DNA from: a virus
Strand: one strand, 5' to 3'
Virus record (IMG/VR): IMGVR_UViG_3300047551_001131
Coordinates: 1-41,153 of that record
DNA: 41,153 nt
Positions within the stretch are counted from its first letter, which is position 1; each line of letters begins with the position of its first letter. Below the pieces are notes generated by a model, which was given only the letters and a program-made list of their open reading frames with translations, did not search any database and was not told the origin of the DNA. Positions 7,282 through 37,344 of the stretch are shown here, piece by piece. The position numbers were made by a program, and so were the translations under genes.

Positions 7282-8595
7282 CTAGTGAGGGAGCGCGTCC
7301 CTAAAGGTTGTCGTCGCCTTGGTAAAGAGCAGGTCCAACTCTCCAGTCGGTCCGTTGCGATGCTTCGCCAGTGACAACTTTACCTCTTCCTCCGTCTGTC
7401 CGTGCTCTTGTCCGTGAGGTCGCCAGAGCAGCAGCACGATGTCGGCATCCTGTTCAATCGCACCAGAGTCTCGGAGGTCAGCCAGTCGTGGCTGGCCTCC
7501 TTCTCTATTCTCAGAAGCTCGCGAGAGCTGGCTGAGTGCGATCACTGGGATGTTCAACTCGCGTGCCATTGCCTTGAGGCCTCGGCTGATGTCGCTGGTC
7601 TCCACGACTCGGTTCACGTCCTTGGTCTGGCGTGACGGCATCATCAACTGGAGGTAATCCACGATGATGAGGTCAAGCCCACCGTTGGCCGCAAGTCGGC
7701 GTGCCTTGGAGCGAAGGTCAATCGGCGAGGCCGTCGGGCTGTCGTCAATGAAGATCTTCGCGTGCTCAAGGTGGTGCACCGCAGCGGCGATGCGAGCAAG
7801 GTCAAACCCCTCCACCTCGCCACGTCGGATGCGGAAGATGTCCACACCAGACGCACCTGCGAGGAGGCGCGTGGTCAACTGATCCTTGCTCATCTCAAGG
7901 GAGAAGACGGCGACCCGCTTCCCCTCCTTGATGGCCGCGTGCTGTGCAATGTTGAGTGCCATTGACGTCTTGCCGACGCTAGGCCGAGCCGCGAGGATCG
8001 TCAGGTCGGATGGCTGCCACCCTCCCGTCATACGATCCAGCGACCCGATCCCAGAGCCGACGCCACGAGCAGCACCTCGGTTGGCGCGGAGCCAGTCCAG
8101 CCGAGAGATGGCGTCCCCGATAAGGTCGTCCATCTCACTGAAGGCCTGCCTCCGAGCTTCACGTGCGACCGCAAAAATCTCCGCCTCCGCCCGACCAAGA
8201 GCCTCGTCGGCATCGGTCGGGTTCTCGTAGGCGATCTCCGCGATCTTGGTGGCTGCGTTCAGGAGCCTGCGAAGCGTCGCAGTCCTGCGTACGATTGTTG
8301 CGTACTGCTGCGCGTTGGCTGAGGTTGGCGTCTTGCTGACAAAATCAGCAAGTGCCGCTCGGCCGCCGATCATCTCAATGTGGCCGTTGCGCTCCAGCTC
8401 ATCAGACACGGTGACGATGTCTACGACTTCGCCGCGTGATGATAGTGACTGGATTGCTGCCCAAATGTGTCGGTGCGAGGGCTGGCTCATATCGTCTGGC
8501 TTGATGTCTGAGGCGTCGCCGATGGCGACCTCGTCAATCAGGCACGAGCCGATAAGGCCGACCTCCGCGTCAACGCTTTTTGGTGGTTGGTGCAT
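7282..8595 (-). CDS. dnaB: Replicative DnaB-family DNA helicase
   Basis: A 437-residue hexameric RecA-fold helicase. The N-terminal domain (SVDAEVGLIGSCLID) is followed by the helicase core: Walker A ARPSVGKT (203-210), SLEMS (232-236), Walker B LIIVDYLQL (309-317), SQLSR (355-359) and the C-terminal KHRNGPTG (411-418) with arginine-finger-type residues. It unwinds the fork during phage replication. The ATG at 8595 is chosen for the GGAGGAACAAGG ribosome binding site; frames open further upstream lie inside the preceding gene. It is the last gene of the minus-strand operon and ends at the terminator at 7253. No separate primase or polymerase was recognised, so the phage probably uses host replication enzymes. 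Confidence 0.95.
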   Translation of the reverse strand: MHQPPKSVDAEVGLIGSCLIDEVAIGDASDIKPDDMSQPSHRHIWAAIQSLSSRGEVVDIVTVSDELERNGHIEMIGGRAALADFVSKTPTSANAQQYATIVRRTATLRRLLNAATKIAEIAYENPTDADEALGRAEAEIFAVAREARRQAFSEMDDLIGDAISRLDWLRANRGAARGVGSGIGSLDRMTGGWQPSDLTILAARPSVGKTSMALNIAQHAAIKEGKRVAVFSLEMSKDQLTTRLLAGASGVDIFRIRRGEVEGFDLARIAAAVHHLEHAKIFIDDSPTASPIDLRSKARRLAANGGLDLIIVDYLQLMMPSRQTKDVNRVVETSDISRGLKAMARELNIPVIALSQLSRASENREGGQPRLADLRDSGAIEQDADIVLLLWRPHGQEHGQTEEEVKLSLAKHRNGPTGELDLLFTKATTTFRDALPH

Positions 8596-9058
8596 CCTTG
8601 TTCCTCCATTCTCCTCTCCATCCGCCCGTCTTCTTCTTCGGGTAGATGCGGATCGGCTCATCCTCCCTAGGGTTAAAGATCCACTCGGTAAAATTCCACG
8701 TGGTGGCATTCTCCCAAGGGTCTGTCCGCGTCACGAGATGGCCGTACCTCTTGTGCAACTCGTCGGTAGAGCATCTTACAACTTCGTCAAGGGCTCCGCC
8801 CGCCGAGTCGTATGAGTCCCTGACCCCAGAGATGGATCGGGTACGGTTCAGCCACAGGCCGCACCTCCCGCATCCAATTGCGTACTCCCAACTGCTGTCC
8901 ACGACGATGGTCAGGTCGTCGTGTTCTCGGTCACGCAGTGCCAGTGCGTGCTGCTGCGCCAAGAATCTCCACGCAATCAATGACTTGGCGTACCCGCCAC
9001 GCCGACTGGGGAGAACCACCTCCTCAGCCAGCGTTGGCGAGTCTTCCATCCTGATCAT
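8570..9058 (-). CDS. Hypothetical protein
   Basis: A 162-residue protein of unknown function. It has IGCGRCGLWLN (61-71), a possible metal knuckle, then a polar middle and a C-terminus rich in Trp, Arg and Lys (WRGEWRNKDAPTTKKR). It overlaps dnaB by 26 bases. Its start is an ATGA overlap with the 23-residue membrane ORF; a second ATG three codons in is also possible. A role in replication is only suggested by position. Confidence 0.6.
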   Translation of the reverse strand: MIRMEDSPTLAEEVVLPSRRGGYAKSLIAWRFLAQQHALALRDREHDDLTIVVDSSWEYAIGCGRCGLWLNRTRSISGVRDSYDSAGGALDEVVRCSTDELHKRYGHLVTRTDPWENATTWNFTEWIFNPREDEPIRIYPKKKTGGWRGEWRNKDAPTTKKR

Positions 9059-11064: not shown

Positions 11065-11082
11065 TTCATTTCCTCCTTGAGG

Positions 11083-11140
11083 TGTCTGCCTCATCAGTGG
11101 CGGGAGACAATCCCCACCAGACCCCTTGCGGGGTTTCGGC
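11083..11140 (-). ncRNA. Type-II hammerhead ribozyme 1 (HHR1)
   Basis: Minus strand, 5' to 3': GCC (11140-11138), GAAA (11137-11134), stem III CCCC-GCAA-GGGG (11133-11122, GNRA loop), U-C (11121-11120) with predicted cleavage after the C, stem I (11119-11098, eight pairs with G-U ends), CUGAUGA (11097-11091) and GGC (11090-11088) pairing with GCC as stem II. The stem I loop segment UGUCU (11109-11105) can pair with AGACA (11087-11083), just before the next gene's AAGGAGG. All invariant core nucleotides are present. It lies between the genes ending at 11151 and starting at 11064. Confidence 0.92.
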
Positions 11141-11150
11141 TAATCCAACC

Positions 11151-11357
11151 CTAGGCGATCACCTCGCCGCCTGTCAACTCCCCTGTCGGGGAGAGCAGGC
11201 CTGCGTTGATCAACTCGTGTGCCGTACGTCCGTACGAGCCCTGTAGAGCCCAGACCGTGCCCGACTGCACGAGGTCGGCGAAGAGGTCAAGGATCTGATC
11301 CTGATCCAACTCGCCTGCCTCATAATCCATCAACCGTCCTACCAGATTTCCCTTCAC
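11151..11357 (-). CDS. Conserved small phage protein of unknown function
   Basis: A 68-residue protein from GTG at 11357 with AAGGAGGAC upstream. MKGNLVGRLMDYEAGELDQD, ILDLFADLVQSG and WALQGSYGRTAHELINAGLL form a compact helical domain resembling a widespread small phage domain of unknown function that I recall from annotated phages. It is nearly fused to the preceding gene, whose stop lies two bases upstream, with no ribozyme between them. HHR1 follows ten bases after its stop. Confidence 0.65.
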   Translation of the reverse strand: MKGNLVGRLMDYEAGELDQDQILDLFADLVQSGTVWALQGSYGRTAHELINAGLLSPTGELTGGEVIA

Positions 11358-11358
11358 G

Positions 11359-11640
11359 TCAGTCCTCCTTCTTCTCAAGCACTTCGCGGGCGAAGGCGAT
11401 ATACCCATCCCGCAACTCGTGCAACTTCTTGATGAGCGAGTCCTTATCCCAGTACTCGTACTCAGCGACGACCACCGCGTCGTCAATCAACTCGTCGCTA
11501 CCAAGAGCGTCAACCAACTGGTTGAACGTGATCTTGTCGCTCCCGAAGGCGAGCACGTCCGCAACCGCAAACTTGCCTGCCGTTGTCCAGATCCTGTGCA
11601 TCAGGGCGTTCTTCCCGTAAGAGACCACCTTTGCTGCCAT
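11359..11640 (-). CDS. Hypothetical protein
   Basis: A 93-residue protein with no recognised domain. It begins MAAKVVSYGKNALMHRIW, has a mixed middle and ends in a charged helix (SLIKKLHELRDGYIAFAREVLEKKED). The start has a clear AGGAGG after hammerhead ribozyme 2. It is translationally adjacent to the 68-residue gene, so the two should stay on one RNA after cleavage. Confidence 0.6.
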   Translation of the reverse strand: MAAKVVSYGKNALMHRIWTTAGKFAVADVLAFGSDKITFNQLVDALGSDELIDDAVVVAEYEYWDKDSLIKKLHELRDGYIAFAREVLEKKED

Positions 11641-11655
11641 CCTGTACCTCCTATT

Positions 11656-11712
11656 TGGTCTGCCTCATCAGAGCAGGACGACCACTTCCTGCTGACCCCG
11701 AAGGGTTTCGGC
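11656..11712 (-). ncRNA. Type-II hammerhead ribozyme 2 (HHR2)
   Basis: Minus strand: GCC (11712-11710), GAAA (11709-11706), stem III CCC-UUCG-GGG (11705-11696, extra-stable tetraloop), U-C (11695-11694) cleavage site, stem I AGCAGGA/UCCUGCU (seven perfect pairs, 11693-11672, eight-base loop), CUGAUGA (11671-11665) and GGC (11664-11662). Loop UGGUC can pair with GACCA (11660-11656) upstream of the next AGGAGG. The first base of stem II (11712) is also the last base of the upstream gene's TAG stop codon. Confidence 0.93.
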
Positions 11713-12125
11713 TATGCGAAGACCAACTCGCCGAAGACAGCGTACTGGACGATCACCTCTGCTCCAGTCGCGTCCACGTCAATCTCGCCATCCCTGATGT
11801 TGATCAGGTGCGCGTACTCACTGTTGAGCACCTTGCAGACAGCGTCTTCAAGGTTGGCAATCGTCAGTGCAAACCAAGGGTTGCCTGCGATGACTGGGTC
11901 GCCGCCGTTGGACTCAATGTCCTCACGTACGTAGACCAGTGCCTCGTCCTGCGGGATGTTGCGGTACTTCTGCTCGTGCAGAAACTTCTGGTCGTCGTAG
12001 TTCTCGTAGAACCCCTTCCAGTTGTAGTCCTTGCACTCACCCCAGTAGTTGATGCCGCCTTCAATCGCCGTCGTGACGATATCTGCCGCATCCTGAACCT
12101 CTAGAACCACGCTCGTGATTTTCAT
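11712..12125 (-). CDS. Hypothetical protein
   Basis: A 137-residue acidic protein of unknown function. It starts MKITSVVLEVQDAADIVTTA, contains IEGGINYWGECKDYNWKGF and YDDQKFLHEQKYRNIPQDEA, and ends in strands (EIDVDATGAEVIVQYAVFGELVFA). The start follows AGGAGGACAGG after ribozyme 3. Its TAG stop is shared with the 5' strand of ribozyme 2, so termination and ribozyme folding may affect each other. Confidence 0.65.
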   Translation of the reverse strand: MKITSVVLEVQDAADIVTTAIEGGINYWGECKDYNWKGFYENYDDQKFLHEQKYRNIPQDEALVYVREDIESNGGDPVIAGNPWFALTIANLEDAVCKVLNSEYAHLINIRDGEIDVDATGAEVIVQYAVFGELVFA

Positions 12126-12138
12126 CCTGTCCTCCTAT

Positions 12139-12202
12139 TCACCTGCCTCATCAGCACTGGTCGGTGATCTCCAGTGGACGTGGGCGCGTCCCACGTTTCG
12201 GC
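12139..12202 (-). ncRNA. Type-II hammerhead ribozyme 3 (HHR3)
   Basis: Minus strand: GCC (12202-12200), GAAA (12199-12196), stem III CGUGGG-ACGCG-CCCACG (12195-12179, six pairs and a five-base loop), U-C (12178-12177) cleavage site, stem I CACUGG/CCAGUG (12176-12155, ten-base loop), CUGAUGA (12154-12148) and GGC (12147-12145). Loop UCACC can pair with GGUGA (12143-12139) just before the AGGAGG of the 137-residue gene. The upstream gene stops 17 bases before the ribozyme. Confidence 0.93.
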
Positions 12203-12219
12203 GCGTTGATGATAGGCGG

Positions 12220-12396
12220 CTACTCCGCCTCTACTGGTCGGATTTCTGTGACATCGTCATTTGTGTCACAGGCCTCCCAGTCAACGTCGCTGCTGTTCTC
12301 AGCGATCTCTCTAGCCTCATCTTCCGTCTCAGCGTAGATGGTCGCAACCATATCCGTCGTACGGATCATGAAGACCTCAAACTTCTTCTCTGCCAT
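12220..12396 (-). CDS. Small acidic early protein (58 aa)
   Basis: A 58-codon frame from an ATG at 12396 with AGGAGGTTGAA upstream. The protein starts MAEKKFEVFMIRTTDMVATI, continues YAETEDEAREIAENSSDVDW and ends VTEIRPVEAE: a beta pair plus an acidic helix, similar in plan to the 82-residue protein at 10062-10310. It is framed by HHR4 upstream and HHR3 downstream, so cleavage at both would give a monocistronic RNA. It contains the only CATG I found in the window. Function unknown. Confidence 0.65.
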   Translation of the reverse strand: MAEKKFEVFMIRTTDMVATIYAETEDEAREIAENSSDVDWEACDTNDDVTEIRPVEAE

Positions 12397-12411
12397 TTCA
12401 ACCTCCTATAT

Positions 12412-12469
12412 GCCCTGCCTCATCAGTCGCAGTCGGGCTTGTCTGCGAGACCCCCGAAGGGGTTTCGGC
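12412..12469 (-). ncRNA. Type-II hammerhead ribozyme 4 (HHR4)
   Basis: Minus strand: GCC (12469-12467), GAAA (12466-12463), stem III CCCC-UUCG-GGGG (12462-12451), U-C (12450-12449) cleavage site, stem I UCGCAG/CUGCGA (12448-12427, ten-base loop), CUGAUGA (12426-12420) and GGC (12419-12417). Loop GCCC can pair with GGGC (12415-12412), upstream of AGGAGG. As in HHR2, the 5' G of stem II is the last base of the upstream TAG stop codon (12471-12469). Confidence 0.93.
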
Positions 12470-12675
12470 TAGATCGCTGTGACCTTGAAGTTGACGCTTG
12501 GTGACATCCGCTTCGGGTCTTCGCGATGGCGATCACAGTGAGCGTTGACGTACGTCTTGCCGTTCACTGTGTACTCCTCAATGACTGAGGCGTACTTGGT
12601 GCACTGCTTGGGTGGTGAGAACCTGCCGCTCAGGCTCATAAAACCGACCTTGGCGGAGCACTTGCGCTTTGCCAT
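12469..12675 (-). CDS. Hypothetical basic protein, first gene of the minus-strand operon
   Basis: A 68-residue basic protein with cysteines at 6, 25 and 47 and two late histidines (AHCDRHRED), a possible metal site. It starts at an ATG after AGGAGGTCAT, directly downstream of HHR5. Being the first gene after the promoter near 12902, it is likely made early and in quantity. Function unknown. Confidence 0.62.
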   Translation of the reverse strand: MAKRKCSAKVGFMSLSGRFSPPKQCTKYASVIEEYTVNGKTYVNAHCDRHREDPKRMSPSVNFKVTAI

Positions 12676-12685
12676 ATGACCTCCT

Positions 12686-12769
12686 GAGCCCTTGCCTCAT
12701 CAGCACGGAGCGGGCTCCGACTCCGTGGACGGTGGGGCTGAAGGGTTGCCTTTGCACCCACCGTTTCGG
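12686..12769 (-). ncRNA. Type-II hammerhead ribozyme 5 (HHR5), in the operon leader
   Basis: Minus strand: CC (12769-12768), GAAA (12767-12764), a long stem III starting CGGUGGG/CCCACCG (12763-12757 with 12736-12730) capped by a 20-base insert containing an AAGG/CCUU mini-stem, U-C (12729-12728) cleavage site, stem I CACGGAG/CUCCGUG (12727-12704), CUGAUGA (12703-12697) and GGC (12696-12694). Stem II is weak: only two G-C pairs, then C-A. Loop GAGCCC can pair with GGGCUC (12691-12686), directly adjacent to AGGAGG. No gene lies upstream, so it would trim the leader of the primary transcript. Confidence 0.85.
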
Positions 12770-12901
12770 TTGGAGGTCTTAGTCCTTATTCACCTGTCAA
12801 GGAGACCGACCTTGCGGCTGACTTATTGGTCTTCTGCCTCAGTTCACCACTGGTCAGTTGACCTTCCGTCAATCAGCGTCGCCGCTGACCTGTCTGAGGA
12901 C

Positions 12902-12932
12902 ACCCTAGCACACCCCTTTCGGAGCCTGTCAA
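12902..12932 (-). promoter_or_regulatory. Predicted sigma-70-type promoter of the minus-strand operon
   Basis: On the minus strand TTGACA (12932-12927) is followed 19 bases later by TAGGGT (12907-12902), with TGC immediately before it as an extended -10. Transcription would start near 12895 and run about 125 bases before HHR5 and the first gene at 12675. Consensus -35 plus extended -10 make this the best promoter in the control region; the 19-base spacer is longer than usual. Confidence 0.6.
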
Positions 12933-21279: not shown

Positions 21280-22775
21280 AGCAGTTAACCAATGAAGTTG
21301 CCATTGATCTGGCTCGCGGTAGAGGCGACATTGAGTTCTTTGCTCGTCGCTGGCTTGGCATTGAAGGGAATCCTGGGCAAGTAGCCTGGTGGAAGGCGTG
21401 CAGTGAAAGAGACGAAACTGGCTATCGTCCTCGGTACATCACAACGGTGGTCTCCGCTGGGAACCGTGCAGGAAAGACTCTTGCTATGGCTGTTGTGTGC
21501 CTCCATCACGCGATATATAAACTAGGACTAGCCAGCCCAACACAAGGCGACCCAGACTCTCACCGACGATGGTCGGAGTCGCCATACGAGTGGTACCACG
21601 TAGGCATCCAGCAGGAGACCGCAGAGCTGGTCTTCCGAGAGATTGAGACCATCCTCTCTGGCTCGCACCCAGCGCAGCGTGGTCGCGGATGTGCTATCAT
21701 CAAGGAACTAGGCAAGGTCATTGAGACCCAGAAGAAGTACCGAGGCGAGTATGCGTGGGTCAAGGTAAACCCAGTACTCGGGGGGGCAAGCATCCACTTC
21801 CGCACCACACAGGATCGAGCGAAGGCTCTCCTCGGTAAGGATATGAATGGCATCTCATTTGACGAGGCGGCGTTTGAGCCGCACTTGCTGATGATTTACC
21901 AAGAGGTTCTGAACCTCCGCCGACTCTCCACTGGCGGTCCACTGCACTTCATCGGGACACCGAGCGAGGGAATCAACGACTACGCGGAACTCTGGGAGAA
22001 GGGTAATCCTGAGAACCCAGCGAAGGATGAGAAGTTCATCAGCTTCCGACTCTCCACCCGCGACAACATTGGCTACGGACTGACGCAGAACAACTTTGAT
22101 GACGTTGTTCGCCAGCAGGCCGAATATCTTATTCCACAAAACATTGACGGGTACTTCATTGAAGCCCGCGATGCCTTCTTCTGGAGCCAGTCAATCCTTG
22201 CGTGCTACAAGACGCTTGAGGATGACGTGAAGCCAGAGCGGAACCACCGATACATTCAGGGAGTAGACCCAGGCATCTCGCACGATTCGACGTGGGCCAT
22301 CACACTGGACATCACCAGCCGCAACAAGATTCGCGGTGTTCGGATCAGGAAGCGCAGCGGAAAGCAGAGCATCTCCGCCGTGGTGAATATGGTCCGCGAG
22401 GGACACCTTCTCTACAGCCAAGACGGAGCCTTCTGCACCACCATCGTGGACTCCACGGGTCTAGGTGGCAGGCTCTTCCAGCAGGAGTTCTCAATGATCC
22501 GCCCGCTCCGAGGGTTTGACTTCGGAGGAACGAAGGCGAAGAAGGTAGAGCTCCTCAACGACCTCAAGGCAGTAATCGATAAGGGTCAACTGGAACTCCC
22601 GATGGGCGGTCCTTGGGATGAACTAAAGAGACAACTCCTCATCTACAAGTTGGACGACAAGAAGCTAGAGCAAGACGCAGTAATGGCATTGGCAATCGCA
22701 GTGCGGCACGCGCTGCGGAATCCTGAGAAGGGCGTAGAGAATCCGACCTTCACCTATTTTGGAGCAAGTGATTGA
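21276..22775 (+). CDS. Terminase large subunit
   Basis: A 499-residue packaging motor. ATPase: Walker A SAGNRAGKT (60-68), Walker B GISFDEA (192-198), coupling motif GTPS (227-230). Nuclease (RNase H-like): GVDPG with D331, IVDSTG with D392 and LEQDAVMALA with D468. It cuts and pumps genomic DNA into the procapsid through the portal encoded next. Translation starts at a TTG that overlaps the previous TGA (TTGA). Confidence 0.95.
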   Translation: MKQLTNEVAIDLARGRGDIEFFARRWLGIEGNPGQVAWWKACSERDETGYRPRYITTVVSAGNRAGKTLAMAVVCLHHAIYKLGLASPTQGDPDSHRRWSESPYEWYHVGIQQETAELVFREIETILSGSHPAQRGRGCAIIKELGKVIETQKKYRGEYAWVKVNPVLGGASIHFRTTQDRAKALLGKDMNGISFDEAAFEPHLLMIYQEVLNLRRLSTGGPLHFIGTPSEGINDYAELWEKGNPENPAKDEKFISFRLSTRDNIGYGLTQNNFDDVVRQQAEYLIPQNIDGYFIEARDAFFWSQSILACYKTLEDDVKPERNHRYIQGVDPGISHDSTWAITLDITSRNKIRGVRIRKRSGKQSISAVVNMVREGHLLYSQDGAFCTTIVDSTGLGGRLFQQEFSMIRPLRGFDFGGTKAKKVELLNDLKAVIDKGQLELPMGGPWDELKRQLLIYKLDDKKLEQDAVMALAIAVRHALRNPEKGVENPTFTYFGASD

Positions 22776-35988: not shown

Positions 35989-36074
35989 ACCATAAAATCA
36001 ACGTAGAGGCATCCAGGACGCGCCAGGAGCCTCGAAAAGGTCGGGGGTGGTATGTAGATACCCCCAAAGGATTT

Positions 36075-36092
36075 GCGAGCCTCTATGCTCGC
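36075..36092 (+). promoter_or_regulatory. Leader hairpin abutting the glycosyltransferase ribosome binding site
   Basis: GCGAGC (36075-36080) and GCTCGC (36087-36092) form a perfect 6-bp stem, two bases before AGGAGGG. A second hairpin GGGGGT/ACCCCC lies about 20 bases upstream in the same 170-base gap. The 14-base string AGGAGGGTCGGATG (36095-36108) is identical to the start region of the RmlD-like gene (985-998), so the two leaders may share translational control. Confidence 0.55.
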
Positions 36093-36105
36093 TCAGGAGG
36101 GTCGG

Positions 36106-37344
36106 ATGAACATTCTCGTATGGGGTACTGCCGAGCAGGGACCCTGCGCCTACTTCCGTGGTCATATGTACGACGAGGAATGGGCGAAGATGGGCATTAG
36201 TGTCCGTCACATTGACAAGATCAACTTCGTTGCCAAGCCTGGTGCAGAAGGGCTATCGCAAGACGAAGCAATGCGGAAGGGTCTACTTGCCGTAGACACC
36301 AGCGACATTGAATGGGCGGACATCGTGATGTTCCGTCGCTACTACAACTGTTCTGCCAAATGCAATGAGTGCGGTGCCGCAAGCAAGGACCCAGAGGTCA
36401 TCAAGTCGCACCAGCACCAGATGCAGATTCGGGACTCCATCACTGAGTGGATGTGGCCAGCCTTTGAGTCGGAGAAGTTTGACAAGGCGATGGTCTACGA
36501 GACCGATGACAATCACTTCCAGATCCGCAAGTGGAATGGCTACTGGCCAGATGTTCAGGCAGAGCAACCACTCATTGAGCGGATGGCGCGGAGGGCTGAC
36601 CTCGTTACCGTCAGCACGGGTCCGATCAAGGATGCGTATTCCCATCTCAACGATAACTTCAGGGTGATTAGAAATGCAATCGATCCGTCAATTTATACGA
36701 CAAGTCGTCCTCGCCCAGAACACGGCGGTAGCAAGCCACGTGTGGTCTATTACGGCAGCACGGCGCGAATGCGCGACTACGGCGGATACCCCAACGACCG
36801 AGGAAAGTGGGAGGGCGGATACGCTGGCAAAGCAGTCCAAGACCTTCGCAAGGAACTCTGGAACGTCTTCATCGGAGTAAACCCAGGAACCGAACACGTC
36901 ATTGCTCCGTTCTTTGACGAGGCGTTCCAATACATTGAGAACATCAAGGGTTTTGCCGAGATTCTGGCAGCTAGTCACGGAGACATCGGAATCGCCCCAC
37001 TTGGTGGCGACGAGTTTGACCGATGCAAGTCAGAGCTTCACTGGCTGGAATACGCAATGGTTGGCGCAGCATTCATCGGTGAGCGATTTAAGTATGGTCA
37101 GGCACCGTACTCAATGGTCCGACACGGTGTGGACGGACTGCTTGCCAAGGGACGACAGGAATGGTACGACGCAGTGAAGTCACTGGTCCGAAGCAAGGAC
37201 CTACGAGAGCAGCTCGCGGGGGCTGCCAAGGAACGAGTTCTCAAAGAGTACAACTATAAGGATCGGGCGGTCGAGTGGGCCGATGCCTTCAAGTGGGCAG
37301 TAGAGCATAAGGGGATTTGGAAGAATGGCAGGAGAAACACTTAG
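36106..37344 (+). CDS. GT4-like (group 1) glycosyltransferase
   Basis: A 412-residue two-domain transferase. The N-terminal domain (MNILVWGTAEQGPCAYFRGH, DIEWADIVMFRRYYNC) has a Cys cluster, CSAKCNECG, of unknown purpose. The C-terminal domain carries DLVTVSTGPIKDAYSHL, FRVIRNAIDPSIYT, SHGDIGIAPLGGDEFDRCKS and a late KERVLKEYNYKDRAVEWADA, the fold and acceptor/donor pattern of GT-B group 1 enzymes. It lies between capsid and adaptor genes, so it may glycosylate the virion; DNA or host glycan are alternatives. The ATG at 36106 follows AGGAGGG. Confidence 0.8.
   Translation: MNILVWGTAEQGPCAYFRGHMYDEEWAKMGISVRHIDKINFVAKPGAEGLSQDEAMRKGLLAVDTSDIEWADIVMFRRYYNCSAKCNECGAASKDPEVIKSHQHQMQIRDSITEWMWPAFESEKFDKAMVYETDDNHFQIRKWNGYWPDVQAEQPLIERMARRADLVTVSTGPIKDAYSHLNDNFRVIRNAIDPSIYTTSRPRPEHGGSKPRVVYYGSTARMRDYGGYPNDRGKWEGGYAGKAVQDLRKELWNVFIGVNPGTEHVIAPFFDEAFQYIENIKGFAEILAASHGDIGIAPLGGDEFDRCKSELHWLEYAMVGAAFIGERFKYGQAPYSMVRHGVDGLLAKGRQEWYDAVKSLVRSKDLREQLAGAAKERVLKEYNYKDRAVEWADAFKWAVEHKGIWKNGRRNT

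Follow-up and report, generated by a model that had tools for sequence, protein, structure and literature searches.

What is the role of five small structured elements that stand between the short genes of a viral operon? The elements lie on the minus strand of IMG/VR record IMGVR_UViG_3300047551_001131 (41,153 nt, analysed over its full length and called the window below). The record also codes for terminase, portal and capsid protein and is therefore taken as a tailed-phage contig. A sequence-only reading of this DNA had described the elements as type II hammerhead ribozymes that divide the polycistronic RNA into separate units. The present analysis extends that view. At a probability of about 0.78, self-cleaving type II hammerheads serve as cistron separators and as protectors of mRNA ends, and the role is interchangeable, a tRNA-like (TL) element taking the same place in sister phages.

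Five type II hammerheads in the window

All five elements match the Rfam family Hammerhead_II (RF02276) over the full length of the model in a covariance-model search, at the minus-strand positions given by the sequence-only reading (Table 1). Three copies exceed the gathering score of 37 bits, and the other two score 30–31 bits. Single-family E-values are 3e-12 to 7e-6. No sixth copy is detected with RF02276 in the 41,153-base record. The 10-mer CTGATGAGGC occurs five times in the window, always at one of the five hammerheads (0.15 occurrences expected; five reached in 0 of 100 shuffles). The core is intact in every copy (CUGAUGA, GAAA, UC cut site). Stems I and III are closed and stem II is open (permutation II), which together with the model matches bears out the fold proposed earlier. 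The cut sites predicted by a separate parse agree with the earlier ones to the base.

The stems vary in sequence and stay paired, as had been stated. The six core-adjacent pairs of stem I differ in every copy, and pairing of each 5′ arm with its own 3′ arm is the unique best of 120 permutations. For stem III this test is less informative because three copies are nearly alike: the score of the true assignment is reached by 6 of the 120. A pseudoknot between loop I and the tail, absent from the earlier description, is present in 5/5 copies, the tail strand lying just 3′ of stem II. Own loop and own tail score 42 against a permutation mean of 26.1, again the unique best of 120.

One hammerhead is located directly 5′ of the Shine-Dalgarno (SD) sequence of each gene or gene pair in the ribozyme part of the operon. 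The tail strand of the pseudoknot ends 0–5 nt ahead of the SD sequence AGGAGG, and the cut product would therefore begin with a compact hairpin-pseudoknot at the ribosome-binding site. Predicted post-cut leaders of ribozymes 1–5 are 52, 52, 51, 53 and 55 nt. Two copies share the first base of stem II with the upstream stop codon; in two others the distance is 11 and 18 nt. Junctions without an element are 11359/11357 (1-nt gap) and 10864/10855 (8-nt gap), in agreement with the earlier statement that every true gap is filled and that 11359/11357 is left free. The predicted unit 11693–11120 holds two genes, as that statement implied.

Hammerhead arrays and a tRNA-like element in related phages

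In contig G012 (IMGVR_UViG_3300010885_027938, 40,771 bp) the corresponding operon has four hammerheads. Gene 3 and ribozyme 3 are absent together, as one block, and other genes stand in the places of gene 2 and the DUF7417 gene. Still present, each with a ribozyme ahead, are gene 1 (identity 52%), gene 4 (61%) and gene 6 (42%). The G012 ribozyme before gene 4 has stem I TCGCAG/CTGCGA and pseudoknot GCCC/GGGC, as in window ribozyme 2 and unlike window ribozyme 4, a resemblance that suggests recombination between ribozyme copies. A second contig repeats the five window elements. Relatives of gene 3 are not found among named phages, and IMG/VR gives only one near-identical contig.

After an exact-pattern scan of IMG/VR, 50 contigs among the matches listed were searched with RF02276. 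A match is present in 40 of them, with at least two copies in 13 and up to ten. An SD sequence, a start codon and an open reading frame follow 43 of 52 copies in these arrays, compared with 17.5% of random positions. Bacterial genome contigs from many phyla contain this exact pattern as well, small arrays included (pattern matches only). Ten hammerheads are packed into about 5 kb of contig IMGVR_UViG_3300038412_000035; in contrast to those of the window, their stem I loops are parsed at 3 nt and show no evident pseudoknot, so lineages may differ in their loop contacts.

DUF7417 links the window to Streptomyces phages. Long arrays (9–14 copies), the largest found here, are present in ten of the named Streptomyces phages tested: Salutena (12), phiScoe1 (10), Jevington (14), Marav (13), Thestral (11), Spernnie (9), Loofah (11), Omar (9), Puginator (10) and Andris (9). 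Of the 34 co-directional gaps that reach 75 nt in three annotated phages, 31 are occupied by a hammerhead, versus 1 of the 54 shorter junctions. None of 36 hammerheads lies mostly inside a gene, gaps making up 12–15% of the region. Predicted post-cut leaders in the Streptomyces phages are mostly 50–62 nt.

Parsing covered 117 copies in 12 phages, among which are the window and G012; the phages are related and the counts non-independent. The parser requires UH and allows one inserted base after A9, with which 3/117 copies fail (48/117 without it). Among the 114 parsed copies the core CUGAYGA is found in 112, the cut site is UC in 99, UU in 12 and UA in 3, and the median length is 56 nt. Pseudoknot pairing exceeds that of permuted tails with z = 7.9 (85 distinct loop/tail pairs, 12 phages).

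In Jevington, phiScoe1, Marav, Thestral and Spernnie a gap close to the operon's 5′ end holds two hammerheads in direct tandem, their model matches 1–2 nt apart; such a pair, if both members cut, would release an RNA of about 65 nt. One phiScoe1 copy (OQ672741.1, 45170–45233) has the core CCGATGA instead of CUGAUGA and is likely inactive or a core variant. At 43743–44156 of Jevington, a gene with the annotation Ocr-like anti-restriction has a hammerhead immediately 5′ of it. The genome announcements of Salutena and Spernnie do not mention ribozymes.

No hammerheads are detected with RF02276 in the sister phages Lika, Endor1, Caliburn, Sitrop and phiCAM (Likavirus and Camvirus). The gaps of the corresponding region are occupied in these five phages by the TL element, 43 nt in length. 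It is composed of a 5-bp acceptor stem, an 11-nt linker with GGCA, a 6-bp T-stem, the T-loop UUCGAGN and then AC(U/C), without an anticodon arm. All 253 of 253 cells pair in the covariation test, 7 of 11 pairs are changed on both sides, and slid partners pair in at most 54%. The TL model detects 7 copies in Lika, 8 in Endor1, 10 in Caliburn, 9 in Sitrop and 10 in phiCAM; it gives no match in the window, in G012, in the ten hammerhead phages or in the remaining arrays searched. Hammerhead and TL element never occur together in any genome tested. No TL element is found as a complete tRNA gene by ARAGORN. Rfam gives no match above threshold, one copy reaching at best 26.9 bits against RF01684 (gathering score 42.5). 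The exact TL pattern is found in 9 IMG/VR contigs only, and the element therefore looks lineage-restricted. Cutting by host RNase P is probable, given that the element is shaped like a tRNA and that an invariant A-C follows the acceptor strand. The tRNA-like mascRNA is released by RNase P and RNase Z.

At some orthologous genes the preceding element differs between the lineages. Jevington 46531–47328 has a hammerhead ahead, versus TL elements in Lika, Endor1 and Caliburn. The Ocr-like anti-restriction gene has a hammerhead ahead in one lineage and a TL element in Lika and Caliburn. Further pairs are phiScoe1 48462–48644 (hammerhead) with Lika (TL), and phiScoe1 45718–45861 with Endor1. Neither a gap nor an element separates the DUF7417 gene from the gene that it follows in Jevington, Salutena, Lika, Caliburn and the window. 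Between Jevington and Lika, 2 orthologous 5′ boundaries have an element in both phages, 10 in neither and 0 are discordant (small numbers). In the TL phages a hairpin starts 0–2 nt past the element (mean stem 5.6 versus 3.7 in shuffled sequences), and another ends 0–3 nt ahead of it (5.6 versus 4.4); the loop of the latter often includes the stop codon. With either system, therefore, one message would carry a hairpin past its stop codon and the following message would begin with one. The RNR tree allows one change between hammerhead and TL phages (support 72/94), and the ThyX tree two (weak).

Proposed mechanism and alternatives

The minus-strand polycistronic RNA would cut itself during transcription after 12728, 12449, 12177, 11694 and 11120. 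The upstream message would end with its stop codon and then the stem III hairpin with a 2′,3′-cyclic phosphate. The downstream message would start with the 5′-OH stem I hairpin, locked by the pseudoknot 0–5 nt ahead of the SD sequence. The first cut would strip the long leader. Separate mRNAs with uniform leaders of 51–55 nt, structured ends and mutual insulation would result, a natural counterpart of the engineered insulator RiboJ. In sister phages of the Streptomyces relatives the TL element, probably cut by host RNase P, would act in the same place. The stricter form of this proposal is somewhat favoured: phage operons use interchangeable separators, hammerheads in some lineages and a TL minihelix cut by RNase P (perhaps RNase Z) in sisters, giving single-gene messages capped by hairpins at both ends.

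Cistron separation, proposed by the sequence-only reading, is well supported by the covariance-model matches, pseudoknot covariation, placement, and recurrence in unrelated and in cultivated phages. Several points weigh against it. Two of the five window copies score under the Rfam cut-off. Plain minimum-free-energy folding recovers all three stems in ribozyme 5 alone, the pseudoknot being outside what such folding models. Cleavage is predicted here from sequence, and the operon is taken as one transcript from orientation and spacing. The orthologous-boundary counts are small and the phages related. Self-cleavage in infected cells, a single polycistronic transcript, end protection and the equivalence of hammerhead and TL element are inferred.

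The hammerheads may be real and cutting, yet selected for stabilisation of the 5′ end and translational insulation, with cistron separation as a by-product. This is a serious contender, though held at less than even odds. Every copy ends just ahead of an SD sequence, post-cut leaders are uniform (50–62 nt), ribozyme 1 precedes the first gene, where no upstream cistron exists to separate, and RiboJ raises transcript and protein levels (PMC6206723). However, only 0, 0, 11 and 18 nt separate the stem III hairpin from the stop codon, which means that the upstream message also has its 3′ end shaped, and in TL phages the stop codon is often contained in the hairpin that lies 5′ of the element. It is unlikely that the ribozymes are regulated or act as co-transcriptional switches, with cutting set by the ribosomes ending the upstream gene, or by a ligand, and genes tuned singly. 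In the two copies whose stem II is overlapped by the stop codon a ribosome terminating there would sit on the GAAA core strand, but no conserved aptamer-like domain is present and the copies are minimal, as their median length indicates.

A use mainly as recombination joints for swapping or adding gene-plus-ribozyme cassettes, with cleavage of little weight, is improbable. It would account for the loss of gene 3 with ribozyme 3 in G012, for gene 2 and DUF7417 swapped between kept elements, and for the likeness of the gene-4 ribozyme there to window ribozyme 2; but stems and pseudoknots differ among copies and still pair, which pure homology does not need, and the cores are intact (CUGAYGA in 112/114). 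A recombination role and a processing role are compatible and can coexist. Transcription terminators or chance hairpins, to which the two hairpins per gap could point, have practically no probability left: the terminator scan finds no intrinsic terminator and no U-tract at any of the five elements, the E-values and core motif are far beyond chance, and the RF02276 family match rules this candidate out. Interchangeable cistron separation with end protection is the reading retained below.

Operon layout, known systems and meaning

The features of the operon are listed in Table 1. Downstream of gene 6, close-packed genes follow up to that of the DnaB helicase (7282–8709). The label 'early operon' is plausible, short genes of unannotated function leading to this helicase. 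The 3′ part of the operon leader (about 95 nt) is near-identical to that of the G012 leader (at about 22470–22690), although the first proteins share 52% identity. The leader has no Rfam match and is possibly a small RNA or an antitermination leader. A promoter-like TTGACA near 12931 was spotted by eye and is absent from the scan. No tRNA genes are found in the window. Nucleotide-sugar epimerase/RmlD-like genes and a glycosyltransferase are encoded at 996–2788 and 36073–37344 (plus strand), and a 778-aa tail-fibre-like protein has remote matches only.

Table 1. Coordinates of the ribozyme part of the operon in the window, in order of transcription
Feature	Position	Strand	Remarks
Operon leader RNA	12770–12905	−	5′ of ribozyme 1, whose cut would remove it; alignment, fold z −1.5 (weak)
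Ribozyme 1, type II hammerhead	12695–12769	−	Ahead of first gene; predicted cut after C12728; stem III 8 bp with long insert; stem I 8 bp; RF02276 match 12690–12771, 30.9 bits; pseudoknot GAGCCC/GGGCUC
Pseudoknot 3′ strand of ribozyme 1 (GGGCTC, 12691–12686), directly adjoined by SD sequence AGGAGG (12685–12680)	12680–12691	−	
Gene 1, 68 aa	12469–12675	−	Annotation unknown; stop codon G is first base of ribozyme 2 stem II
Ribozyme 2, type II hammerhead	12417–12469	−	Predicted cut after C12449; RF02276 match 12409–12470, 30.1 bits; pseudoknot GCCC/GGGC
Gene 2, 58 aa	12220–12396	−	Weak phrog_9642 (unknown function)
Ribozyme 3, type II hammerhead	12145–12202	−	Predicted cut after C12177; RF02276 match 12137–12203, 42.0 bits; pseudoknot UCACC/GGUGA
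Gene 3, 137 aa	11712–12125	−	phrog_2355 (unknown function); stop codon G is first base of ribozyme 4; absent from contig G012
Ribozyme 4, type II hammerhead	11662–11712	−	Predicted cut after C11694; RF02276 match 11654–11713, 54.5 bits; pseudoknot UGGUC/GACCA
Gene 4, 93 aa	11359–11640	−	Annotation unknown; position (without sequence match) as Ocr-like anti-restriction gene of several Streptomyces phages
Gene 5, 68 aa	11151–11357	−	DUF7417 (PF24192)/phrog_3908; no real gap or ribozyme after gene 4
Ribozyme 5, type II hammerhead	11088–11140	−	Predicted cut after C11120; RF02276 match 11080–11141, 47.1 bits; pseudoknot UGUCU/AGACA; three stems recovered by minimum-free-energy fold
Gene 6, 66 aa	10864–11064	−	Annotation unknown; no ribozyme beyond

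Serial hammerheads have precedents. The accessible text of Perreault et al. 2011 (PMC3088659) describes prophage genomes in which individual genes or short blocks of genes are flanked by multiple hammerheads, and proposes that long phage transcripts are cut into gene-length mRNAs. The earlier view that no such phage operon had been described therefore fails. According to that text, cleavage of a triple array is seen both in vitro and once the array is cloned in Escherichia coli, and the pseudoknot of loop I and tail is known for the majority of type II hammerheads. The gene flanked by the triple array, ardA, is likewise an anti-restriction gene. Those clusters resemble the present ones in the hammerheads flanking genes (type II and other), in the pseudoknot and in the proposed role. 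They differ in that the largest array tested, as far as that text goes, is the triple one, whereas the window has five in series, each before the SD sequence of a gene or gene pair; the 9–14 copies in cultivated Streptomyces phages and the TL element at the same place in sisters likewise go beyond it.

RiboJ, built of the sTRSV hammerhead and a hairpin, also places a self-cleaving hammerhead between upstream sequence and ribosome-binding site and gives a hairpin-capped message with a fixed leader; it is engineered and has a separate added hairpin, whereas the phage copies use their own stem I and pseudoknot before the SD sequence and are repeated along the operon. mascRNA/MEN beta (RF01684) shares with the TL element the acceptor stem, a reduced D region of GGCAC type, the T-arm and the lack of an anticodon arm. 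The TL element differs in its sub-threshold match, length of 43 nt, helix of 5 + 6 bp and phage origin, and its processing is presumed. The HDV-like theta ribozymes of gut phages are self-cleaving too and tied to RNA maturation; in the accessible text on them they are of another ribozyme class and tied to tRNA-based recoding, not to gene gaps (PMC10879173).

A review of 2017 calls the biological role of prokaryotic hammerheads an open question (PMC6155905). No description of hammerheads in Streptomyces phages or of tRNA-like separators is found in the open-access literature searched (subscription papers and preprints being outside it). Also not found described there are the uniform leaders, the filling of nearly every gap, the TL replacement and the scale that the arrays reach in cultivated phages.

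Arrays in cultivated phages, and a different RNA in close relatives, make the hypothesis of mRNA processing testable in laboratory phage-host pairs. The findings point to a new kind of tRNA-like mRNA-processing element. If the reading is true, the arrays are a natural precedent for insulators of RiboJ type, with about 100 distinct natural variants listed. One need would then be met by a self-cleaving RNA in some phages and by a recruited host ribozyme in others, which would show the purpose of phage hammerheads.

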